Below are positions 1 through 18,272 of a stretch of 23,745 nucleotides of DNA, in pieces (the stretch's first letter is position 1; each line of letters opens with the position of its first letter). The notes beneath the pieces are model-generated. The model searched no databases, was not told the origin of the DNA, and worked only from the letters and a program-made list of their open reading frames with translations. The stretch lies in IMG/VR virus record IMGVR_UViG_3300032267_000353, positions 1 through 23,745 of that record, one strand, 5' to 3'. The position numbers and the translations under genes were made by a program. This DNA comes from a virus.

Positions 1-2445
1 ATTTACAAGGTGCGCGACCCTAGCGGTGCTATCCGCGAAATTGAGGGGCCATCGGGCGCAACAGATGACCAAGTTATAGCAAAAGCCAAAGAGTTATTTG
101 CTACACCTGTCGCAATACCTACTGGTGGTATTCCAGTGGGTCGAACTGCAAGTACCCAAGAGGGAACTATGGGTGCGTATACTCCTCGTCGAGAGGTGTC
201 AACGCCAAAATTGCCCAGTATGTTCACAACAGCACCAGAGCCTGTTGCAGAGGCACAGGGTTCATTGGCTACGATTAGAGGTTTGGTTTCCCCAATATTT
301 CCTGAAACCACCCGCAAATTTTATACGCAGCTTGGTTGGGCAGAACCAACAACAGAGCCATTAAAAGCGGCGCAATTTGGTGGGGAATTCGCTGGACAAA
401 CTGCTATTACTGCTCCACTTGGTGGCGTAATAGCTAGACCATTAGCAACAGTAGCACCATATGCACCAACCGTCATTAATCCAATCGTAAATGCTTTGCG
501 GTCATCTGGTTTTAGTTCTGGTTTGTTGCCCGCTGCTAAAGTTGTTCCTGGGGTTGCACCTCAAGCAATCCCCTTATCAACCCGCGCTGCCGACATTGGT
601 GCGCGTGTAGTTGGTGGTGGCGTGACTGGCGGCGCAACTGCGGCGCTTACTAACCCTGACGAAATTGGTGCTGGCACTAGTGTTGGTGCAGGTCTGGCTG
701 TTGCAGCGCCGCCTATTGTTAAGGGTCTGGCTAAAAGTGCAGGATTTTTAGTTGATGCTTTTAGTGGACAACTTCCTGCTGTTGGCGCTGGAAAAATTGC
801 GCGTGAAGTTGCTGGTGAACGTATTGGTGCAATTCGCGCCGCACTTGCCGCTGCACCAGAAGATGTAACTGCCGCACAAGCCACATCAGGAATTAAGAAA
901 GATGCTTGGCAAGCGTTTGGTGAGATGGCTGGCAAAACAGACCAAAGGTCTACTTTGTTAAAGCAGCAAGCAGCAAATGATTTATCTGCATTGCAACGCA
1001 TGGCTGAAGGTGGCAATGAAACACAGATGCGGGCAGCATATGAGCAGTCAATTAAACGACTGAATCAATTAACTGCCGACCTGAGAAATGTGCCTTTGCA
1101 AGCGGCTAATCAGGCCAACCAAACCATTAATCAATTAGCACCCAAGCTGGAGCAACGTCAAGCAAGCATGGTAAATGCGTTGCGTGAAGGAATGCCAGCA
1201 AACCTACCTTCTGGTGCGGCTGGCACACCAGCACCTGGCGTATCTGGCATTCATGCGGGGACAGAAGCATTGCAACGTGCAAATGTTGCAGATGATGCTG
1301 CTAGACGGTTAATGGTTGCACGTTCTCAAGCTGCTCGCGGAGGTGTTTCAGAATCAACTGTGCCCGGTGCAAATGATAGGCGCATTGAAAGTGCCAATCG
1401 TTTTGTATCGGAGCAATGGCAGCAGGCTTCTGATGAATTTGCAAACATTGCAAAACAACGCCGCGCGGAGGCTGGATTTATTGAGCGTCAAATTGGCAGT
1501 CTTGAGGCTCATGGTTTGAGGCCATTGGATGCTGGAAGCATTACAGCAGCAATTGACCAAAAACTTTCTACGCCGGGACTTCGTGCCAGTTCTAACATGA
1601 CCAAGGTTTTGCAGGCAGTTAAAGACGACATTGCCAATTTGACCGAAAAAGGTGGCGGCGTCATTGACGCACATGATCTTTACACCCTTCGCAAAGAAGG
1701 CATCAACGAGCGCATCATGCAAATCATGGGGCAAACCGATCCCAAGATAAGCGCCAAAGTGACGCGAAATGTACTGCAAGAAGTTCGTCCACTTATTGAT
1801 GATGCTATTGAAAAAGCTGGCGGCACAGGTTGGAAAGATTACCTTAAAACGTATTCTCAAGGTATGCAAGCCATTGACCAAAAAGCAATGGCAGCACAAG
1901 CAGCAAAGTTGTTTGAAAACGCACCAAATGAATACGTTAAGTTAGTTCGAGGTAACAACCCAGATGCGGTAGAAGCCATCTTTGGACCAGGCAGTTACGA
2001 CATTTTTAAAGAGATGGGCAGCAAGATGCCTACTTTAGAAAAAGTGGCTAGTAATGTTGAGCGCAATGCTGCAATGAAAGAAGCGGCAACCGCTGGAACC
2101 GAAGCACTTGGAAAAGTAATTGGCGAAGATTCATTTCGTTTGCGCTTTCCAAGTCTTTTAAACCGCGCTACTACAGCGGCCAATTTAACATTGGACATCT
2201 TAGAAAAACGCCTTGACAAGAAAATTTTTGCCGAAATGCAAAAAGGTATGGCGTCTGGAAAAAGCGCATTGGAAATGTTAAATACATTGCCAGCAGCTGA
2301 AAAAAGCAAAGTTCTTCGCGTGTTGTCTGACCCCGAATCTTGGGGTAAGGCGGGTACAATTTCGGCAAGAATTGCCACAAGGCAAGAGCAACCAGTTAAC
2401 GCCCTTGCTCCTCAGCAAGAAAACCAAAACGCCCTAGCAAAGTAA
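1..2445 (+). CDS. Putative DNA ejection / internal virion protein (5' end cut by window)
   Basis: The reading frame is open from base 1 and the first in-window start is a GTG at 10. The residues before it (I-Y-K) read as protein, so the true start is probably a few codons upstream. The N-terminus (VRDPSGAIREIEG, then a DDQVIAKAKELF segment) is a type often seen at the front of phage internal virion proteins. Residues about 100-260 are rich in Gly, Ala, Pro and Val with hydrophobic stretches. The rest is Ala/Gln/Lys-rich and mostly helical or coiled-coil in character. Length (over 811 aa), composition and position just before the lysis cassette match ejection proteins of podovirus-like phages, which leave the capsid with the DNA. 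I see no lysozyme or transglycosylase motif. The role is inferred from context and composition. Confidence 0.65.
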   Translation: MYKVRDPSGAIREIEGPSGATDDQVIAKAKELFATPVAIPTGGIPVGRTASTQEGTMGAYTPRREVSTPKLPSMFTTAPEPVAEAQGSLATIRGLVSPIFPETTRKFYTQLGWAEPTTEPLKAAQFGGEFAGQTAITAPLGGVIARPLATVAPYAPTVINPIVNALRSSGFSSGLLPAAKVVPGVAPQAIPLSTRAADIGARVVGGGVTGGATAALTNPDEIGAGTSVGAGLAVAAPPIVKGLAKSAGFLVDAFSGQLPAVGAGKIAREVAGERIGAIRAALAAAPEDVTAAQATSGIKKDAWQAFGEMAGKTDQRSTLLKQQAANDLSALQRMAEGGNETQMRAAYEQSIKRLNQLTADLRNVPLQAANQANQTINQLAPKLEQRQASMVNALREGMPANLPSGAAGTPAPGVSGIHAGTEALQRANVADDAARRLMVARSQAARGGVSESTVPGANDRRIESANRFVSEQWQQASDEFANIAKQRRAEAGFIERQIGSLEAHGLRPLDAGSITAAIDQKLSTPGLRASSNMTKVLQAVKDDIANLTEKGGGVIDAHDLYTLRKEGINERIMQIMGQTDPKISAKVTRNVLQEVRPLIDDAIEKAGGTGWKDYLKTYSQGMQAIDQKAMAAQAAKLFENAPNEYVKLVRGNNPDAVEAIFGPGSYDIFKEMGSKMPTLEKVASNVERNAAMKEAATAGTEALGKVIGEDSFRLRFPSLLNRATTAANLTLDILEKRLDKKIFAEMQKGMASGKSALEMLNTLPAAEKSKVLRVLSDPESWGKAGTISARIATRQEQPVNALAPQQENQNALAK

Positions 2446-2449
2446 CATC

Positions 2450-2683
2450 ATGGAAACCCAGCAACTCCTAAACATCGGCCTCAGCACCGTAATGCTTGTA
2501 ATTGGCTGGTTTGCCCGTGAACTTTGGGCGGCGGTCAAAGAATTAAAAGTTGACCTGTCTAAGATGCGTGAGGACTTGCCCAAGATATATCTTTCCAAGG
2601 ACGACTACAGGTCTGATCTAAAAGACATTCGGGATATGCTGGGCAAGATTTTTGACAAACTAGACAACAAACAGGATAAATAA
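2450..2683 (+). CDS. Small membrane protein of the lysis cassette
   Basis: This 77-aa protein has one N-terminal transmembrane helix (residues about 7-27, rich in Leu, Val, Ile, Gly and Trp). A charged, probably coiled-coil cytoplasmic part follows (KELKVDLSKMREDL, then KDDYRSDLKDIRDML). It starts 4 bases after the ejection gene and its stop overlaps the next ATG as TAATG. Proteins of this shape sit beside holins in many phages and are often called holin-like or XhlA/hemolysin-like. It could assist the holin or be a spanin-like part, but no spanin signal or lipobox is visible. The ORF and topology are seen directly; the lysis role is inferred from its neighbours. Confidence 0.7.
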   Translation: METQQLLNIGLSTVMLVIGWFARELWAAVKELKVDLSKMREDLPKIYLSKDDYRSDLKDIRDMLGKIFDKLDNKQDK

Positions 2684-3060
2684 TGGACCTTGGTGCAATA
2701 TCCGGTTTAGTCAACACGGCTATCAACAAAATATGGCCTGACAAGACTGAGGCTGAAAAGCAGCAGCTTGCCGCAGCCGTAATGATTGTCCAAGGGCAGC
2801 TAGACATCAACAAGGTGGAGGCGGCAAACCCCAGTGTTTTTGTTTCTGGTTGGCGTCCATTTATCGGCTGGGTCTGCGGCGCGGCTTGTGCGTGGAATTG
2901 GATTGGATTACCTATTGCAGCAATGGCGCTAAAGGTTTACCAGATTGACATTCCTTTGTCGCCAGCTAATCTTACTGAGATGCTGCCTGTCCTTATGGGT
3001 ATGCTTGGGCTTGGTGGCTTGCGTACCATTGAGAAAATCAAAGGCGTAGCAGCGCAATGA
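2683..3060 (+). CDS. Holin, 3TM family
   Basis: This 125-aa protein has an amphipathic N-terminal half (residues 1-45, with the segment DKTEAEKQQLAAAVM). A membrane part follows, with the motif GWRPFIGWVCGAACAWNW at about residues 56-73 and further hydrophobic helices at about 74-90 and 98-115. The WRPF-W motif is typical of the phage 3TM holins (the GTA_holin_3TM type). Such holins permeabilise the inner membrane and release the endolysin at lysis. The start has AGGA 6 bases upstream. Its stop overlaps the endolysin start by 4 bases, supporting one lysis operon. Confidence 0.85.
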   Translation: MDLGAISGLVNTAINKIWPDKTEAEKQQLAAAVMIVQGQLDINKVEAANPSVFVSGWRPFIGWVCGAACAWNWIGLPIAAMALKVYQIDIPLSPANLTEMLPVLMGMLGLGGLRTIEKIKGVAAQ

Positions 3061-3485
3061 ACTTGTCTCCGCATTTCACCCTCGACGAGTTAACCCACAC
3101 CGACCACCGGACGCTGGACAACACGCCAAATGACGAAGAACGAGCAAATCTGGTACGACTGGCTGAGTTTCTGGAGTTGGTCAAGGTGGCGCTTGGAAAT
3201 AAACCCGTCATGGTCAACTCCGCCTTCCGATCTAAAGCGGTCAACGATGCAGTCGGCTCCAAAGATACGTCCCAACATCGAGTGGGCTGTGCTGCGGACA
3301 TCCGTGTTCCCGGAATGACCCCAGATGCCGTTGTACGCTCCATCATTTCCTCTGGTTTAGCCTATGACCAGATCATCCGTGAGTTTGACGCTTGGACGCA
3401 TATCAGCATTCCAAACCATTCAAACCACCCGCCCCGCAGGCAGGCTCTTATCATTGACCGGCAGGGAACCCGTCAGCTTGCGTAA
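3057..3485 (+). CDS. Endolysin, peptidase M15-like (D-Ala-D-Ala carboxypeptidase fold)
   Basis: This 142-aa single-domain peptidase lacks a signal peptide, consistent with holin-dependent release. The M15 pattern is clear: SAFRS at residues 55-59, the zinc-ligand block SQHRVGCAADI with His74 and Asp81, and the third ligand His115 in WTHIS. The N-terminus (SPHFTLDELTHTD) is the usual start of the M15_3 type. It is expected to cut peptidoglycan peptide cross-links. It overlaps the holin gene by 4 bases. No cell-wall-binding domain is present, which is normal for phages of Gram-negative hosts. Confidence 0.9.
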   Translation: MNLSPHFTLDELTHTDHRTLDNTPNDEERANLVRLAEFLELVKVALGNKPVMVNSAFRSKAVNDAVGSKDTSQHRVGCAADIRVPGMTPDAVVRSIISSGLAYDQIIREFDAWTHISIPNHSNHPPRRQALIIDRQGTRQLA

Positions 3486-3531
3486 CATAAATGTGTTAAG
3501 TTCTAAAAGTTTCTAAAACCAAGGATTTAAC

Positions 3532-4482
3532 ATGAATGTCTCGGATGAGGAATTTATAGAACTTTGGAACGTTCATCAGTCACCTTTAAAAATGGCAAAG
3601 GCTATTGGCGTCAATGAACGTGGCGTTTATAGGCGCAGAAATCACATAGAAAACAAACTTAATGTCAGCTTGGCTACTAACAAAGAATCGTACACCGCTT
3701 CACCTATAAGACCCAAATCTGAACTTGGAATTGAAAATGGCACAGTTATTGTTTTTTCTGACGCTCATTTCTGGCCTGGGATACGGACTACTGCTTTTCA
3801 GGGCCTATTGTGGGCGATTGAAAAGCTACAACCGAAAGCAGTTATTTGCAATGGGGATGCTTTTGACGGCGCATCTATTTCTCGCCATCCACCTTTGGGT
3901 TGGGCTAGAACGCCAAGCGTGATTGATGAATTAAATTCTTGTAAAGAAATGTTGGGTGAGATAGAAGAAGTTGCAAAAAAAGCGCGAAACAATGTAAAGC
4001 TAATTTTTACGATGGGCAATCACGATTCTCGATTTGAAACGCGCTTGGCTGCCAATGCTCCACAATACGTTCAGACACCAGGATTTAGGCTATCTGACCA
4101 CTTCCAAAACTGGTCATTTTGTATGCTCACTTGGGTTACTGATGACATCATTGTTAAGCACCGATACAAGGGAGGCGTACACGCTACCCACAACAATACG
4201 GTAGGGGCTGGAAAAACAATTGTAACGGGCCATTTGCACAGTTTAAAGGTTACACCTTATGCAGACTACAGTGGCAACCGTTTTGGCGTAGATACAGGCA
4301 CTTTGGCAGAGCCTTACGGCCCACAGTTTGATTACTCTGAAGGAAACCCGTTAAACCACCGGTCTGGCTTTGCCGTATTGACAATCAAAGATGGAAAACT
4401 GCTTTGGCCTGAATTGGTGCATAAATGGACAGATGGTCAAGTAGAATTTCGCGGAGAAGTGATTGACGTAAGTGGCCTTTAA
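3532..4482 (+). CDS. Calcineurin-like metallophosphoesterase with N-terminal HTH-like segment
   Basis: The 316-aa protein carries the full metallophosphoesterase motif series: D77-A-H79, G108-D109-x-x-D112, G162-N-H-D165, H217 within GVHATH, and G233-H-L-H236. Two metal ions should therefore be bound and a phosphoester hydrolysed. The substrate (nucleotide, nucleic acid or protein) cannot be told. Residues about 5-40 (HQSPLKMAKAIGVNERGVY, then Arg-rich) look like a helix-turn-helix, so binding to DNA is possible. An AAGGA site lies just before the ATG. The gene ends the rightward block after the endolysin and faces the leftward operon. It is not needed for lysis by any known mechanism. Confidence 0.85.
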   Translation: MNVSDEEFIELWNVHQSPLKMAKAIGVNERGVYRRRNHIENKLNVSLATNKESYTASPIRPKSELGIENGTVIVFSDAHFWPGIRTTAFQGLLWAIEKLQPKAVICNGDAFDGASISRHPPLGWARTPSVIDELNSCKEMLGEIEEVAKKARNNVKLIFTMGNHDSRFETRLAANAPQYVQTPGFRLSDHFQNWSFCMLTWVTDDIIVKHRYKGGVHATHNNTVGAGKTIVTGHLHSLKVTPYADYSGNRFGVDTGTLAEPYGPQFDYSEGNPLNHRSGFAVLTIKDGKLLWPELVHKWTDGQVEFRGEVIDVSGL

Positions 4483-7710: not shown

Positions 7711-7737
7711 AGTTTATCACAGTTCTTGGCGTGTCAA
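7711..7737 (-). promoter_or_regulatory. Possible promoter before the small-gene chain
   Basis: On the minus strand a perfect TTGACA (7737-7732) is followed after 15 bases by TAAACT (7716-7711). The -10 match is 4 of 6 and the spacer is 2 bases short, so it is a weak candidate. If used, transcription would begin about at the ATG at 7703. The -35 overlaps the last codons of the primase/helicase gene. Confidence 0.3.
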
Positions 7738-9752
7738 CTGTTTTTTTTCAACATCATTCCTGACGACATTCCTGGATCAATGACGATCCAGCCGTTCTCA
7801 TGAACTTCAATCAATCCAGCCTCAATCAAGTTGTTGATGTATCTGGCATCTTTTCCATCAATCAGATTGCGTCTAGAGCCTTCCGCTTTAGCTCCAGGAA
7901 AGATTGAAATTCCATTCGCAACAGCGTACTCGCGCATCACAGACTTGGTGAGGTACGGTGCGCCGCCTCGGTCTTCAACACCTGAAGTCCACCAGGCTTT
8001 TTCAAAGTCGGCAAACCCTAGAGACTTATCCTTCTGCTTTGTTTCCGGCATTTCTCCTTTAACCACTACTGCGCTGGAAACGGCCTCGCCATCTTCATCC
8101 AGCCAACCAGGTATTGCTACTGATTGCAAGTCAACATAGACTGGCGCTGCCATCTCAGCGTCTTTGCTCTTGCGCTGCACAATCTCAATCGACTTGTCGC
8201 CCTTGGCGGGTATTACGCTAATCTCGATGTCTAATGCGCCACGCCAAGCGCTAGAACCTCGGGCACGGTGCTGGGCTTCATCAGATACGCCGGTATGGTG
8301 AACCAGAATGACGGTGCAGCCAAACTCCTGCATCAGTGCCGCGCAGGCGTCTAGCATGGTTTTCGCGTCCTGTGCGCTGTTTTCGTCACCGGCCATAAAG
8401 CGGTGCAAGGTGTCTACTGTGATCACGCTTGGCTTGATCTTGAGTGCCCTGACTGCCTCTAATACCTTTAAGTAGCCTTCTGTCGTGTTCAGGTCTAGCC
8501 CTGACTTGCTTACCCACATATTTAGTGACGTGACGTGGTTATGGTGCTTCCACGCCGCTATCCTGCTTCGCAAACCGTGGTGCCCTTCACCGGCCAAATA
8601 CACCATATTGCCTGGTCTAACTTTGTGGCCGAACCAGCTTGTTTTGCCACTTGCAATGTGCAACATCCAATCCAAAGTCACAAAGGTCTTACCACCACCA
8701 CTAGGGCCATGCACCATTACTAGGGCTTGGTCTTGTATCCAGTGCTTCACAAGCCACGAAATAGGCGCTGGCTGCTCTGAAAACCCATCGGCATGGACTA
8801 AATAGTCTGTTGCGGCCAATGGCTTTAAAAGCAGCGCCAAATCATTGCCCTCTTGAACGTAGTCATTGGCGTCACCTAAAACCGGCGGCATTGTCATACG
8901 GACACCATACTTTGCGCTTGCCTGCTCTGCGTAGCGTTGGCCCACGCCACTGGCGTCATGGTCGGCCACAATGCAAATATCAATCGTTAGGTAACTTGCT
9001 TTAAGAATTCCAGTCACTGGCACCAAATTGCTAGCGCTGTAAGCCACCGCGCAGGGCTTGCCTGTCACTTCGGCTATGGTGGCCGCTGTTGCAAAGCCCT
9101 CGGCAATGTAAAGCGTATCGGCGTCATCCATGCTGCCAAGCAGCCAAAACATAGAGCCGGTCTTACCACCTGGGTGATACTTCTTATCTCCGTCACCGGC
9201 TATGTATTGGATGCTGGACAGTTCCCCATCCTCGTTATACAAAGGCACCATCAAGCGCCCATCGCCCGTTACCCTCGCACCGTGCGGTGCAATTTTTTTC
9301 TTAGCCAAATAGGGGTGTTCTGGGCTTGCTACGCTTCCCTCTGACCAAATGATCTCCACGGTCTTCGCTGCCACTTCGCGGGTTTTAGCCTGCTCCGTAT
9401 CACGCTGGGTTTTGGCCTCTGATAGTCTGCGAGACTGCGCCATTTCTTCTGCCACCGTGAGGCTGCGTCCAATCTCCGCTTTCCAAGTCAACTCAACGCC
9501 AGAGCGCCAGCAACCAAAGCGCCCTGCCGGTACGCCATCATTAAAGGCTATGTACCAACCAGGCTTATCGTGACCTTTCTCACCCTTCGTGCCACTGTTA
9601 AAACGGTGCAGCTTGCCGTCTAAATGTATGGCGTCAGGCGGCCTCAAACCTGCGCCAAGCATGGCGTCTTTTAATTGATCTTCAGGGGAATCAACGTGCT
9701 TTTCGGCTGGTGGCGACCACGGGCCACCAAGGATACTTGCGAGGTCACTCAT
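7734..9752 (-). CDS. Bifunctional primase/helicase: Toprim plus RepA-like AAA ATPase
   Basis: The 672-aa protein starts at ATG 9752 (AAGG 8-10 bases upstream); an in-frame extension to 9917 would run through the promoter region and is rejected. Residues 141-310 form a Toprim-type primase part: HPYLAKKKI, E218-G219 in LYIAEGFATA, and D264/D266 in IVADHDASG. Residues 330-540 form a RecA-fold helicase: Walker A GPSGGGKT (349-356), Walker B VITVDTLHR (443-451) and a VILVHHTG strand (481-488). Residues 585-660 look like a winged-helix end. No CHC2 zinc finger is visible at the N-terminus. It should prime and unwind phage DNA at replication. It opens the leftward operon, divergent from the Sak4 gene. 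Confidence 0.9.
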   Translation of the reverse strand: MSDLASILGGPWSPPAEKHVDSPEDQLKDAMLGAGLRPPDAIHLDGKLHRFNSGTKGEKGHDKPGWYIAFNDGVPAGRFGCWRSGVELTWKAEIGRSLTVAEEMAQSRRLSEAKTQRDTEQAKTREVAAKTVEIIWSEGSVASPEHPYLAKKKIAPHGARVTGDGRLMVPLYNEDGELSSIQYIAGDGDKKYHPGGKTGSMFWLLGSMDDADTLYIAEGFATAATIAEVTGKPCAVAYSASNLVPVTGILKASYLTIDICIVADHDASGVGQRYAEQASAKYGVRMTMPPVLGDANDYVQEGNDLALLLKPLAATDYLVHADGFSEQPAPISWLVKHWIQDQALVMVHGPSGGGKTFVTLDWMLHIASGKTSWFGHKVRPGNMVYLAGEGHHGLRSRIAAWKHHNHVTSLNMWVSKSGLDLNTTEGYLKVLEAVRALKIKPSVITVDTLHRFMAGDENSAQDAKTMLDACAALMQEFGCTVILVHHTGVSDEAQHRARGSSAWRGALDIEISVIPAKGDKSIEIVQRKSKDAEMAAPVYVDLQSVAIPGWLDEDGEAVSSAVVVKGEMPETKQKDKSLGFADFEKAWWTSGVEDRGGAPYLTKSVMREYAVANGISIFPGAKAEGSRRNLIDGKDARYINNLIEAGLIEVHENGWIVIDPGMSSGMMLKKNS

Positions 9753-9780
9753 CTTTTTTTGCCTTGTTGTTAAAAAGTTG

Positions 9781-9811
9781 TTGACACTGTAGCACAAAAC
9801 TATGCTATGAT
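9781..9811 (+). promoter_or_regulatory. Likely sigma70-type promoter for the recombination operon
   Basis: A perfect TTGACA (9781-9786) lies upstream of TATGAT (9806-9811), which has the extended -10 dinucleotide TG at 9803-9804. The 19-base spacer is long; an overlapping TATGCT (9801-9806) gives 14. It sits in the 115-base gap between two divergent operons, about 57 bases before the Sak4 start. The reverse-strand promoter for the primase is not obvious. Confidence 0.6.
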
Positions 9812-9818
9812 CCAGCCA

Positions 9819-9846
9819 CGCTTCGAACTGAGTCCAGACGGAAGCG
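9819..9846 (+). other. Hairpin in the 5' leader of the Sak4 operon
   Basis: CGCTTC (9819-9824) pairs with GAAGCG (9841-9846), with an inner CTG/CAG pairing in the loop region. It would form near the 5' end of the transcript from the promoter just upstream. It could stabilise the mRNA or act as an operator; no U-tract follows, so it is not a terminator. Confidence 0.4.
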
Positions 9847-9867
9847 CAAACAGAGAAGGAGAGCCAC

Positions 9868-10533
9868 ATGGCTATATCGTTAAAGCGCACCAGCGGCCTC
9901 AGTGCCAACGGTGTCAAATTGCTTGTCTACGGACAGGCTGGTGCGGGTAAGACAAGTCTAATCAAGACGTTGCCAAGCCCCGTTGTATTGTCAGCCGAAG
10001 GTGGATTATTGTCCATTCAAGACGCTGACCTTCCTTACTTGGAAATTACAAGTATGGATGATCTTCGGGAAGCCTACTCATGGGTTTTGGAGTCTGAGTA
10101 CAAGAGCGTAGCCCTTGATTCGATTTCTGAGATCGCCGAAGTTTGCCTGAATCATGAAAAGAAGGTCAACAAAGACCCACGCGCTGCCTATGGCGCTATG
10201 CAGGAACAGATGGCTGACATCATTCGGGCATTCCGCGACATCCCAGGTCGCCACGTTCTGATGACCGCCAAGCTAGAGAAGACGCAGGATGAGATGGGTC
10301 GCGTACTGTATTCGCCTTCTATGCCAGGCAACAAGACCGGCCAAGCATTGCCCTACTTTTTCGACGAGGTGTTAGCACTGCGGGTTGAGAAAGACGCCGA
10401 GGGCAACACCCAACGCGCCCTGATGTGCGACTCTGATGGCTTGTGGCTTGCAAAGGATAGGTCAGGAAAGTTGAGCGCTTGGGAAGCCCCTGACTTGGGC
10501 GAGATCATTGCCAAGATTGGCGGTGCAGCATGA
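9868..10533 (+). CDS. Sak4-like RecA-fold ATPase (single-strand annealing recombinase family)
   Basis: The 221-aa protein has Walker A GQAGAGKT at residues 22-29 and a Walker B-like strand ending in D84 (SVALDSIS). A typical TAKLEKTQDEMGR segment and FFDEVLAL strand follow, as in the AAA_24/Sak4 phage nucleotide-binding family. Sak4 proteins are short RAD51/RecA relatives that promote annealing or strand exchange, usually with a phage SSB. The gene has a strong AGGAG site and heads the rightward operon. A DUF669 protein downstream is the expected partner. Its stop overlaps the next start by 4 bases. Confidence 0.88.
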   Translation: MAISLKRTSGLSANGVKLLVYGQAGAGKTSLIKTLPSPVVLSAEGGLLSIQDADLPYLEITSMDDLREAYSWVLESEYKSVALDSISEIAEVCLNHEKKVNKDPRAAYGAMQEQMADIIRAFRDIPGRHVLMTAKLEKTQDEMGRVLYSPSMPGNKTGQALPYFFDEVLALRVEKDAEGNTQRALMCDSDGLWLAKDRSGKLSAWEAPDLGEIIAKIGGAA

Positions 10534-11875: not shown

Positions 11876-12883
11876 ATGCAAATACCTGAACCCGAGATTA
11901 CCATAACTTCGCTGATTGACCAAGCCCATGAGGCACGGCTAGAAAAGCCTCGTGCCCACCTTGGTTGCTCAATGCTTGGGCACCACTGTGATCGCTGGCT
12001 GTGGCTGTCGTTTCGCTGGGCAGTGCAGGAAAAGTTTAAGGGTCGCATTCTGCGCTTGTTTCGACGTGGTTTTAACGAGGAGGCCACTATCATCAGCGAC
12101 CTGCGCGCCATTGGAATGACCGTATCAGGCACCCAGCGTCGGGTGGACTTTGGTAGCCACGTTAGCGGCAGCTTGGACGGGATTGGCAAGGGGGTGCCTG
12201 GTGCGCCAAAGTCCGAACACGTTTTGGAGTTCAAAACCCACAGTCTCAAGTCATTCAATGACTTGGAGAAAAATGGCGTGGCAAAGAGTAAGCCCATGCA
12301 CTTCACACAATGCCAAGTGTATATGCACGGCACCGACCTGAAACGCGCTTTGTATGTCGCCGTCTGCAAAGACGATGACCGTGTATATACAGAGCGCCTA
12401 GAGTATGACCGCGCCCATGCAGAGAAAGCCATTGCCAGAGGCCAGCGCCTTACCCTGACCGACCGCCTGCCACCACCCATCAGCACCGACCCTACTTGGT
12501 TTGAGTGCAAGATGTGCGCGGGGCATGATTTCTGCCACGGCAGCAAGACCACCAAGGAAGTCAACTGCCGCACCTGCGCCCATGCAACGCCATTGTCGGA
12601 TTCGACTTGGCACTGCGCCAAGTGGGATGATGTAATACCCACAGAAGCTCAACATACTGGTTGCGAGGCCCACGTCCTGCACCCTGACTTGGTGCCGTGG
12701 AAACGCCTAGAAAGCCCCAGCGACTGGGTTGCCGTCTATGAAATTAATGGTTTAGGCTTGGCTAATGGTGAGCCAGGCGAGGGCGTGTATAGCAGCAAGG
12801 AATTGCTTGCTAATGCTGCGGCTTGTGGTGACACCACTGTAAATAAAATCAGGTCTGAGTTTGATGCTAGGGTGGTGGGATGA
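11876..12883 (+). CDS. PD-(D/E)XK nuclease, Cas4/RecB-like with Fe-S-type cysteines
   Basis: The 335-aa protein shows the RecB-like core: an early E in GFNEEA (68-69), GSLDG with D101, EFK (E118, K120) and Q145-x3-Y149. It also has Cys31/Cys38 near the N-terminus and C211-x2-C214-x5-C220 after the core. That spacing matches the Cas4/AddB pattern (one early plus three late cysteines) for a 4Fe-4S cluster. A further Cys set (231, 234, 247, 263, in CRTCAHA and GCEAH) looks like a zinc module seen in phage proteins. It probably resects DNA ends for the Sak4/DUF669 system. An AGGAG site precedes the ATG. Confidence 0.82.
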   Translation: MQIPEPEITITSLIDQAHEARLEKPRAHLGCSMLGHHCDRWLWLSFRWAVQEKFKGRILRLFRRGFNEEATIISDLRAIGMTVSGTQRRVDFGSHVSGSLDGIGKGVPGAPKSEHVLEFKTHSLKSFNDLEKNGVAKSKPMHFTQCQVYMHGTDLKRALYVAVCKDDDRVYTERLEYDRAHAEKAIARGQRLTLTDRLPPPISTDPTWFECKMCAGHDFCHGSKTTKEVNCRTCAHATPLSDSTWHCAKWDDVIPTEAQHTGCEAHVLHPDLVPWKRLESPSDWVAVYEINGLGLANGEPGEGVYSSKELLANAAACGDTTVNKIRSEFDARVVG

Positions 12884-13587
12884 ACTACTTAACAAAAAGA
12901 ATTGATAAGCAGACGGCCAAATCTGTAATTGAAACAATGCACTACAGAAAAACTCTTGGTGTTTTTTGGGAAGCGTTTGGATTGTATGAAAACGACAAAT
13001 TAATCGGTGTTGTTTGTTACGGAATGCCATCTGCGCCAATTCAAAAACACGCTTTTAAAAACCGTAATTTTCGTTTATATGAATTAACGCGATTGGTTAT
13101 TGATGGAAATAACAAAAATTGTGCGTCAATGCTTATAGCAGAGTCATTAAAAATGCTAAATGAACAACCATCAGCAGTAATTAGTTATGCGGATAGTGCA
13201 TTGGGTCATGTTGGAATTGTTTATCAAGCGTCTAATTGGTTATATACGGGCGCTACAACATCTCATGATAAATTGTATATGGTTAATGGTAAAGCGCTTC
13301 ACCCCATGTCACTTAGAGATCAATTTGGTGTTACAAATCCTTCTGTTTGGGCCAAAGAAAACAATGTTCAAACAATAAATCCTTCACCAAAGCATAGATA
13401 TTTTTATTTTAATGGAAATAAATATGAACGTAAAAATATGATTGCAAAATTATCTTATCCGTTAATTGCTCAATATCCAAAAGCACCAAAAACTTATTAC
13501 ACCGTTATTGGAGGATGCAACGATGCAATTATTAAAAACGATCCAATCGTAATTGATAAACGCCAAATGTCTTTGATATTGGAATAA
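12880..13587 (+). CDS. Mom-like DNA modification protein (GNAT-type)
   Basis: The 235-aa protein has YELTRLVID (67-75), a CASMLIAESLKML helix and the block ISYADSALGHVGIVYQ (101-116), followed by ASNWLYTG. These match the pattern I know from the Mu Mom family, an acetyltransferase-fold enzyme that modifies adenine (methylcarbamoylation) and protects DNA from host restriction. The family's N-terminal strands (LGVFWEAFGLYENDKLIGVV) are also present. The gene overlaps the nuclease by 4 bases. In sampled lines its G+C is 23-40%, far below the helicase downstream, indicating separate origin. Enzyme activity and modified base are not shown by sequence. Confidence 0.75.
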   Translation: MNYLTKRIDKQTAKSVIETMHYRKTLGVFWEAFGLYENDKLIGVVCYGMPSAPIQKHAFKNRNFRLYELTRLVIDGNNKNCASMLIAESLKMLNEQPSAVISYADSALGHVGIVYQASNWLYTGATTSHDKLYMVNGKALHPMSLRDQFGVTNPSVWAKENNVQTINPSPKHRYFYFNGNKYERKNMIAKLSYPLIAQYPKAPKTYYTVIGGCNDAIIKNDPIVIDKRQMSLILE

Positions 13588-16412: not shown

Positions 16413-17087
16413 TTAGACTGATTTAATGCTAATTACTTTCAGCATTTTGCGGCCGTGCGCCGGATAGCATATTAGATCAATAGATTTATCCCAGCACGCG
16501 CGACAGCCGTTACATTTCCCACCGTGGTCATATGCTTGGCAAAGTGACGCACCGGCCACCGGCTCGAACGTCGATGCATCCGGTCCAATTGTCGAACCAT
16601 GCAAACCTGGAATATAAGAGCCGTCGATCGAATCAGCTGAGAACCGAATAGATACGTTTGGCAGTGCGCGCATGGCGTCAAATACCATGCGAAATTTCGG
16701 GAATTTATGCATACGCGTGGGGAGCCAGTGCTTAACCCATGGCGTGCGTTGCATTACCTCGAGCACTTTTTCAGCAAGTGCAAGAGAATATAGATCGCCA
16801 CTATCCAACCAACGAAAATACTCATCGCGCGCAAGCTCGCGCACCATGTCGTCGCACCAGTCGAGCCGGTGCCAGTCCTCTTGATTGTGGAGCCGGGGCG
16901 CGCGCACTGTCTCCATAGCATAAAACCCCGTTGTGGCGTAGCATCCTTTGCACGCGTCAACTAGTACGCCGGGCGACTCAATCGAGCCAGGGCACGTGTC
17001 AATGGCCTGTAGGCTCCATGAGCGAATGCCGTCTAATTTTGACGTTACGCTAATTTTTACTGCGGCCGCGATTCTTGTGTGCTCCAT
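16413..17087 (-). CDS. GP88-like Cys-rich phage protein
   Basis: ATG 17087 has AAGGAAA just upstream; the open frame to 17192 is rejected. The 224-aa product has SWSLQAIDTCPGS (Cys32), ACKGCYA (Cys46, Cys49), WLDSGDLYS (93-101), then PTRMHKFPKF and SIRFSADSIDG. A C-terminal cysteine cluster follows (C183, C192, C195, C198, C207). I recognise the CPG ... C-x2-CYA ... SGDLYS layout of the phage GP88 family. Its function is unknown; the cysteines suggest a metal or Fe-S site. It is the largest gene of the leftward GC-rich operon. Confidence 0.75.
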   Translation of the reverse strand: MEHTRIAAAVKISVTSKLDGIRSWSLQAIDTCPGSIESPGVLVDACKGCYATTGFYAMETVRAPRLHNQEDWHRLDWCDDMVRELARDEYFRWLDSGDLYSLALAEKVLEVMQRTPWVKHWLPTRMHKFPKFRMVFDAMRALPNVSIRFSADSIDGSYIPGLHGSTIGPDASTFEPVAGASLCQAYDHGGKCNGCRACWDKSIDLICYPAHGRKMLKVISIKSV

Positions 17088-17154
17088 AATTTTCCTTTGG
17101 TTATCGGGACAATTCCCGCCACTGCGCCCGATGTAGGCGCAGGGACTGGGACTG

Positions 17155-17325
17155 TCACTGGGGATAGCACTTACAGTAGAACTGATTGCCAAACTGGTCT
17201 ACAAAGTACAAGTTTTCACATCCGGTGTCGGTCAAGACAATTGCACCAGTAGCAAGCCAAGACTCCATTGTCTTGATCTCGATCTCGGTAATCTTAGGCA
17301 GTGTTGATTTATATTGGATTCTCAT
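17155..17325 (-). CDS. Small hypothetical protein, 56 aa
   Basis: AAGGAT lies upstream of ATG 17325, 4 bases after the previous gene's stop; an in-frame start at 17355 is less likely. The product MRIQYKSTLPKITEIEIKTM, then SWLATGAIVLTDTGCENLYF, is beta-rich with two cysteines (C46, C52). Not recognised. It is part of the leftward operon and separated from GP88 by 67 bases. Confidence 0.6.
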   Translation of the reverse strand: MRIQYKSTLPKITEIEIKTMESWLATGAIVLTDTGCENLYFVDQFGNQFYCKCYPQ

Positions 17326-17329
17326 GATG

Positions 17330-17506
17330 CTATCCTTTGTGTTGCAGGGTTTCAAGTTTGGCTATCCATTCTGCCAATTCGCGGTTAGTGGCAAGGGTGC
17401 TTTTAAGAGCGCCGCGCGCGAATCTGAGCGTTTGTTTTAAATGCTCAGACTGATTTTTAGTCCCAGTCAGACGGTTAATTTGAGCTTGCAATTGTTCGCG
17501 CAGCAT
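17330..17506 (-). CDS. Small coiled-coil protein, 58 aa
   Basis: AAGGAAAA precedes ATG 17506. The product begins MLREQLQAQINRLTGTKNQS, continues EHLKQTLRFARGALKSTLAT and ends NRELAEWIAKLETLQHKG. It is basic and almost fully helical with heptad character, so a dimer or helical hairpin is likely. It is the promoter-proximal gene of the leftward operon, next to the motif array. It could be a DNA- or RNA-binding regulator, but no HTH is visible. Confidence 0.65.
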   Translation of the reverse strand: MLREQLQAQINRLTGTKNQSEHLKQTLRFARGALKSTLATNRELAEWIAKLETLQHKG

Positions 17507-17570
17507 GGTTTTCCTTTTGGGTTTTTAAGTGCTGCCCTATGCTGCACCATGTGGTTAGTGTAACTGATTT

Positions 17571-17584
17571 TGTAGCATGCAACA
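17571..17584. repeat. Imperfect palindrome around GCATGC
   Basis: TGTAGCATGCAACA is an imperfect palindrome centred on GCATGC, between the leftward operon start and the motif array. It may be an operator for the leftward promoter; a TACAAA-like -10 with extended TG overlaps it on the minus strand, but no clear -35 is present. Confidence 0.35.
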
Positions 17585-17640
17585 TGTTTTATTGCACTAT
17601 TTTCTAGGTGTTTACCCTTACATTTCTTGCACAATGTATG

Positions 17641-17730
17641 CACAATGCATTGTGTAAGATCGGGGGCAAAACAACGATTTTCTTACACATTTTGCACAAA
17701 ACCCCTAGGGTTTGTGCATTTGTGTAAGAT
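17641..17730. promoter_or_regulatory. Palindromic motif array before the terminase genes
   Basis: A perfect 14-bp palindrome CACAATGCATTGTG lies at 17641-17654. Three copies of a TGCATTTGTGTAAGAT-like motif occur: 17646-17660 (+), 17681-17696 (minus) and 17715-17730 (+). The last two flank a CCCTAGGG core and together form an approximately 49-bp imperfect inverted repeat (17681-17729). The array sits in the 286-base non-coding gap (17507-17792) between divergent operons. An operator, replication origin or packaging (pac) site would each fit. Confidence 0.6.
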
Positions 17731-17792
17731 TGTTGCGTCGTTTTTTGGGTGATAATTCGATAGGTGTTGAACTATTTTTGGGGTGATGATTT

Positions 17793-18272
17793 ATGGCATA
17801 TGAAATGGCCGAAGTATGCGAAATTCAAGAACATTTAGTGGCTGAGCTTCAGACTGGCCGGAGTCTGCGCCAGGTTTGTGGTGACGAAGGGATGCCAGAT
17901 TTCAGGACGGTGCAGCGGTGGATCGTTGCTGATCCCGCCTTTGCCGTCAGGTACGCGCGCGCTCGCATGGCGCAAGCTGATACGCTATTCGACCGCATGG
18001 AAGCCGTTGAAGAGGCTGTGACGGCCGGCACGATGGATAGCCATGCCGCGCGCGTCGTGCTCGACTCTATGCGGTGGCGCGCGTCCAAGCTCGCACCAAA
18101 AGTGTACGGGGACCGTCTCGATGTCAGCGTAAGCGACAGCCGAATCAGCATCACCGGCGCTTTGGCCGCAGCACAATCACGCCTAGTTGACGTGGTCGAC
18201 GTTACACCGCGCCTGAGTGCATCCAATGTGCAAGATGTGCACGACGAGGGGGAGGGTAGGGCCGACGGCTAA
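17793..18272 (+). CDS. terS: Terminase small subunit, Sf6-like
   Basis: The 159-aa protein has an N-terminal helix-turn-helix (SLRQVCGDEGMPDFRTVQRW, about residues 24-43). A YARARMAQADTLFDRMEAVE helix and an SMRWRASKLAPKVYGDRLDV block follow. This order matches Sf6-type small terminase subunits, which recognise the pac site and recruit the large subunit. The C-terminal tail is acidic and probably disordered. In sampled lines G+C is about 65%, much higher than the gene that follows. The motif array lies directly upstream and could be its binding target. Confidence 0.85.
   Translation: MAYEMAEVCEIQEHLVAELQTGRSLRQVCGDEGMPDFRTVQRWIVADPAFAVRYARARMAQADTLFDRMEAVEEAVTAGTMDSHAARVVLDSMRWRASKLAPKVYGDRLDVSVSDSRISITGALAAAQSRLVDVVDVTPRLSASNVQDVHDEGEGRADG

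Follow-up and report, generated by a model that had tools for sequence, protein, structure and literature searches.

Upstream of the small terminase gene terS of an uncultured lake virus, a stretch of non-coding DNA between divergent operons carries several copies of a short motif in alternating orientation, which raises the question of what this array does and which protein reads it. The virus record (23.7 kb), analysed over its whole length, is called the window here. An earlier note on this DNA had described the motif copies, a 14-bp palindrome and an inverted repeat of about 49 bp in a 286-nt gap, all of which are present as described, and had suggested a replication origin, an operator array or a pac site. 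It placed the element at 17641-17730, which is correct for the right part but misses the left, as the element begins at about 17617. For most uncultured phages the replication origin is unknown, and GC skew is often no guide to it, but here both the repeated word and its putative recognition domain can be read from many contigs.

A two-part element with a fixed layout and changing words

The features of the gap and its borders, in window coordinates, are:

17330-17506 (- strand): 58-aa ORF, left border of the gap
17507-17792: gap of 286 nt between the leftward 58-aa ORF and terS
17617-17730: two-part element, defined by its word layout, which is kept in relatives
17617-17660: part A, with words TTACATT (17618, +), TTGCACA (17627, +) and ATGCACA (17638, +) and inverted TTGTGTAAG (from 17650)
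17641-17654: perfect 14-bp palindrome CACAATGCATTGTG, identified from the letters and dinucleotide shuffles
17661-17681 (+ strand): spacer with a conserved GGCAAAAC(A)(G/A)CG core, present in distant elements too
17682-17730: part B, with words TTACACA (17683, +) and TTGCACA (17692, +), the hairpin core, and inverted TGTGCA (17713-17718) and TGTGTAA (17721-17727)
17697-17716: hairpin core with a CT..AG centre (CCCTAGGG at 17703-17710)
17793-18272 (+ strand): terS, an Sf6-type small terminase (PF20901, E 2.8e-27), downstream neighbour of the element

Part A consists of three direct words, 9-11 bp apart, and one inverted word, with the 14-bp palindrome inside it, and part B has the order word-word-hairpin-word'-word'. 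The direct words of both parts (17618, 17627 and 17638; 17683 and 17692) are spaced by roughly one helical turn, and the spacing in the distant locus L264 is alike. The TGCATTTGTGTAAGAT-like copies lie at 17646-17660 (+), about 17681-17697 (-) and 17715-17730 (+), and the imperfect inverted repeat of about 49 bp around CCCTAGGG is 17682-17730.

Within the window itself the case for motifs above chance is modest. Judging from 1000 dinucleotide shuffles of the 286-nt gap alone, repeated 7-mers on both strands (P = 0.002), repeated 11-mers (P = 0.023) and the palindrome (P = 0.027) exceed expectation, whereas an ungapped inverted repeat with 24-nt arms does not (P = 0.35), because the repeat contains a bulge; when bulges are allowed, 17680-17732 folds as single-stranded DNA at -17 kcal/mol (z = -7.5). 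Scanning the gap for promoters and terminators gave none, sigma-70 promoters not being above chance, and no structured RNA in Rfam matched anywhere in the window. A reading frame over part A (17467-17643), found in 8 contigs, was taken as a by-product of DNA conservation.

The case for the motifs is secure because the layout is kept across relatives. A search of IMG/VR gave 128 places with a relative of terS, and for 80 of these the sequence upstream of terS was compared; the phage isolate collection contained no close DNA relatives, and a scan of genome contigs for a prophage or host gave one fragment in an alphaproteobacterial MAG. About 60 relatives share the order of GTTTACCC flank, part A, GGCAAAAC spacer and part B. 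The expectation in the earlier note that an alignment of related gaps would show conserved motifs was borne out for this layout but not for the letters of the motifs. The repeated word is specific to each lineage, and all copies within one phage, inverted ones included, change together: the window has TTACACAATG/ATGCACAATG, L007, L144 and L158 have TTGAATCG/CGATGCA, and others have TGCGTAT (L025, contig G016), TTGCACTTTTTGCA (L054), TTCACAATG (L013) or ACATACATAGTACATTG (L249). In near-complete contigs these words form no further array.

The hairpin also changes in sequence. In a comparison of 39 different hairpins, pairing at the seven positions closest to the centre is 95-100% within a phage, but only 34-74% when arms are combined across phages; as detection required at least four paired bases, which biases the innermost pairs, pairs 5-7 are the cleaner evidence. 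Compensating changes keep the structure while the sequence drifts around the CT..AG centre.

Outside the two parts, GTTTACCC/GGGTAAAC flanks the element in many relatives, and GGGTTTACCC is repeated nearby (for example in L028, L038 and L074), whatever the word type. A tail resembling GATGCGGCG / GTTGCGTCG is conserved 3' of part B (17731-17742 in the window), also in the distant L264 and L272.

The C-terminus of the primase-helicase tracks the word

Genes of whole contigs were clustered and protein similarity was compared with word type, which singled out the C-terminal end of the primase-helicase. Extra loci gathered through this protein and the neighbouring helicase gave 21 different phages with an element and a complete C-terminus. 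The protein and its relevant parts are:

7737-9869 (- strand): primase-helicase with Toprim_3 and AAA_25, RSF1010-RepA-like, the proposed initiator (Pfam, PDB phmmer, PHROGs)
7737-8021 (- strand): its C-terminal 95-aa domain, a predicted winged helix and proposed iteron binder (AlphaFold2 model and covariation)
7851-7907 (- strand): turn and putative recognition helix, residues 655-673, with most of the strongest word-covarying residues

Across the 21 phages, element similarity correlated with that of the C-terminal ~95 aa (r = 0.83), also given the remaining protein (partial Mantel r = 0.744, P = 0.0002, a permutation P not to be taken at face value because the sample is related, with just two independent switches between the window's type (A) and the others (non-A) on a tree of the rest of the protein). 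Both switches were concordant for word and domain. The remaining protein, by contrast, gave a partial r of only 0.188 with the element given the C-terminus. Among ten proteins tested, this C-terminus, encoded 7.7 kb from the element, was the sole one to track the word: its correlation stayed at 0.72-0.83 given any of the nine others, which, given the C-terminus, had partial r values of -0.13 to 0.21 (TerS, TerL, the helicase, VRR-NUC, a 66-aa protein, the Cas4-like exonuclease, Sak4/AAA_24, DUF7173 and a 162-aa protein). TerL, the helicase, VRR-NUC, the Cas4-like exonuclease, Sak4/AAA_24 and DUF7173 were accordingly rejected as partners (at most 0.21), as was TerS as word reader (r = 0.17, partial 0.018).

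Clusters of words and of domains agree well, with an adjusted Rand index of 0.75-0.85 (P 0.0002, to be read with the same reserve), but are not perfectly one-to-one. G015 and G042 have words in the TTGCACTTTT set and domains that fall apart; the G016 domain joins that of G015 while its word stands apart, and G043 and L227 have domains together and words apart. The window itself is the telling case. The N-terminal part of its primase-helicase is closest to those of G042, L158 and G015 (89-90%), which carry other words, whereas its C-terminal domain is 88% identical to that of G003 and only 48% and 39% to those of L158 and G015. Its element matches G003's group, the five best matches scoring 0.81-0.86 and L158 only 0.25; domain and element, 7.7 kb apart, have moved together.

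The C-terminal domain was modelled by AlphaFold2 from 39 family sequences with high confidence (pLDDT 93.2, pTM 0.85), and the order of its elements, H-E-H-H-H-E-E-H, is the winged-helix arrangement. No single PDB match was significant, those listed being mostly winged-helix DNA-binding domains, and PHROGs gave none; the sole significant fold match among viral proteins was the end of a Prim_Pol phage protein (E 7e-7, TM 0.81). The residues that covary most with the word (per-column partial r 0.60-0.72) are 30 and 34, in helix 2, and 39, 41, 43, 46, 48-52 and 57, in the stretch 39-57 that forms the next turn and helix 3. Toprim (Toprim_3, E 4.2e-9), AAA_25 and this domain are joined in one chain, which matches RepA (1g8y, E 2.8e-5); Pox_D5, a Pfam model linked to the P4/SF3 type, was absent in 10 records.

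The protein likely starts at MSDLASIL, residue 40 of its frame. Upstream of this start, the translation of 9752-9917 (-) is conserved in relatives (about 69-82% identity), and this stretch is probably not part of the protein but a leader or promoter region. In G003, G017, G020 and G030 an ORF of 263-280 aa (cluster c69), inserted between the primase-helicase and Sak4 genes, splits this stretch, with residues 1-60 of the 727-aa frame now matched some 800 bp away.

Gene order in distant phages and the function of the element

Primase-helicases at 51-55% identity (tblastn) are encoded by Salicola phage CGphi29, Idiomarinaceae phage 1N2-2 and Alteromonas phages PB15 and XX1924, where the neighbouring genes are Sak4, the Cas4-like exonuclease and the helicase, with VRR-NUC in three of the four. 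In each of these cultured phages the top interval of a scan for repeated 7-mers lies directly 3' of the primase-helicase gene, a position at which their origins are now predicted, and the same architecture follows this gene in the uncultured L264, L269, L272, L275 and L296. The words are GGGGACA, GGTACA and GGTTCA in the cultured phages and GGTAAC and GCCCCCT in uncultured ones. The order in L264 is that of the window, with part A, then GGTGGCAAAACAGCG, then part B and its hairpin; the spacer counterpart in L272 is GGGGGCAAAACGCTCG. The words of L272, L275 and L296 are GC-rich (GCCCCCTAGCCCCC) where others are AT-rich, so AT-richness of the word is dispensable.

In L275 the primase-helicase gene is followed by the element and then by terS; in PB15 and XX1924 the element lies beside the primase-helicase, 3' of its gene and about 5-6 kb from terS. 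Judging from gene order, the replication block of the window may be inverted relative to element and terS when compared with CGphi29, which would explain why the element sits between divergent operons beside terS.

We consider it very likely that the element is the phage's replication origin, with iterons that the primase-helicase binds through its C-terminal winged helix, and with a hairpin. Among the options of the earlier note, the origin is the one supported, by covariation with the C-terminal domain and by adjacency to its gene in distant phages. The GC-skew check proposed there gave no such support, since the cumulative minimum lies at or near the primase/Sak4 divergence in most contigs and not at the element; the skew follows gene direction. 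From these data we infer the binding of the words, origin activity and the roles of hairpin and spacer. In the mechanism we propose, the winged helix of the phage's own primase-helicase would bind the roughly helix-phased words of parts A and B, and this would load the RepA-type helicase ring. Unwinding would then expose part B's hairpin, enclosed by its inverted words; this hairpin may help in opening, or in priming, with the Toprim primase or host proteins beginning a primer there. Domain and words would evolve as lock and key, and each lineage would therefore have its own origin specificity.

An operator array, on which this same domain or another regulator would bind the words and control the divergent promoters, chiefly that of terS, is unlikely. 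The element does sit in a divergent intergenic gap, and many relatives have a TAAAAT-like box 3' of it, but the covarying partner is a replication enzyme, no sigma-70 promoter stands above chance in the gap, and PB15 and XX1924 have the element on the 3' side of the primase-helicase gene, far from terS. Nor would an operator need a hairpin whose sequence changes freely. The 58-aa protein, named in the earlier note as a possible binder, is a poor candidate, as its ORF has no relatives in the fetched contigs while the element is conserved. Operator and origin roles could nevertheless coexist, as in many iteron origins.

That the element is a pac site recognised by the small terminase, as its place directly upstream of terS in the window's clade and in L275 might suggest, is very improbable. 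A ring of HTH domains could well sit on repeats spaced by about one helical turn, yet TerS does not follow the word (see above), the L057 element is nearly that of the window although its TerS is only 52% identical, and PB15 and XX1924 have the element far from terS; the data therefore contradict the proposal that the HTH of TerS reads it. There is very little to commend a plasmid-like partition or incompatibility site, or a resolution or telomere site: repeat-flanked palindromes are known at such sites too, but the covariation is with a primase-helicase domain, and a non-exhaustive look at the fetched gene maps led to no ParA/ParB or protelomerase gene. Chance or tandem slippage, that is, local duplication and gene conversion with no protein partner, would fit repeats only modestly above chance within one sequence but can be set aside almost entirely, since it was already disfavoured by the partial Mantel result, and changes are shared by inverted copies and by copies separated by tens of bases, which track a domain encoded 7.7 kb off.

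Known origins and the wider meaning

As a replication origin, the element has parallels in several known systems. The helicase of the P4 alpha protein is of the SF3 type. According to PMC4234260 (citing Ziegelin & Lanka 1995 and Yeo 2002), P4 alpha is one protein with a Toprim-type primase, a helicase and a winged-helix domain that binds origin repeats (ori/crr iterons), and the window's protein likewise has primase, helicase and a predicted winged helix, the putative origin binder, in one chain. It differs in its RepA/RecA-like helicase (AAA_25), without an SF3/D5 part, and the element adds a sequence-variable hairpin. RSF1010 (IncQ) shares the RepA-type helicase and the combination of iterons with stem-loops, its short stem-loops ssiA/ssiB being primase start sites (PMC4234260), but it uses three separate proteins (RepA, with RepB' as primase and RepC as iteron binder) and another type of primase, whereas helicase, primase and putative iteron reader form one chain here.

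The pri-rep-ori modules of PICI/SaPI place the origin directly after the initiator gene, on its 3' side, with two iteron sets and sometimes terS next (PMC6092414), an arrangement like that of the element, its two word sets and its neighbours; however, their iteron sets flank an AT-rich region and not a hairpin, and PICI are satellites and not full phages (PMC6092414). In the RepA_N/ori system of Vibrio cholerae PLE, modules swap and covary and experiment shows that cognate pairs are necessary (PMC8263062). Initiator domain and origin appear to co-swap here too, but RepA_N is a different domain at the opposite end of the protein, and the present phages have more word types and partners 7.7 kb apart. 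Plasmid pRN1, finally, has a C-terminal winged helix in its replication protein and a stem-loop origin that varies in sequence but not in structure (PMC4234260), paralleled here by the predicted winged helix and the hairpin, but it has no iterons and an archaeo-eukaryotic-type primase with an SF3 helicase (PMC4234260). By analogy the element would work like the origins of P4 alpha, PICI, PLE and RSF1010 and yet be a separate variant, set apart by its RepA-type helicase, the absence of Pox_D5 and the joining of iterons with a variable hairpin. A small literature search found no paper on the present origin.

A wider reading, which we put forward tentatively, is that these are abundant freshwater phages with swappable origin specificity, in which at least seven word/winged-helix pairs on one primase-helicase have been recombined between backbones at two separate loci. 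The pressure behind this might come from competitors, from satellites or from origin nucleases, such as the Odn nuclease that targets the PLE origin. The domain would then be a new modular origin-binding family, also found on Prim-Pol proteins. Word/domain pairs would provide a natural protein-DNA recognition code and a marker of replicon compatibility, and would make it possible to test directly for diversifying selection on origin specificity.

Beside the Cas4-like exonuclease gene, the window encodes a Mom-like DNA modification protein (12880-13587, +; PF25680, E 2.8e-39; PHROG 1384) shared by few relatives. The variable leftward block before the element, where relatives have several unrelated proteins, holds a GP88 family protein in the window (16413-17192, -; PF17338, E 1.2e-29). 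In L275, terS is followed by a 775-aa ORF (1319-3646, -), at the place where the window has the terminase large subunit and portal.
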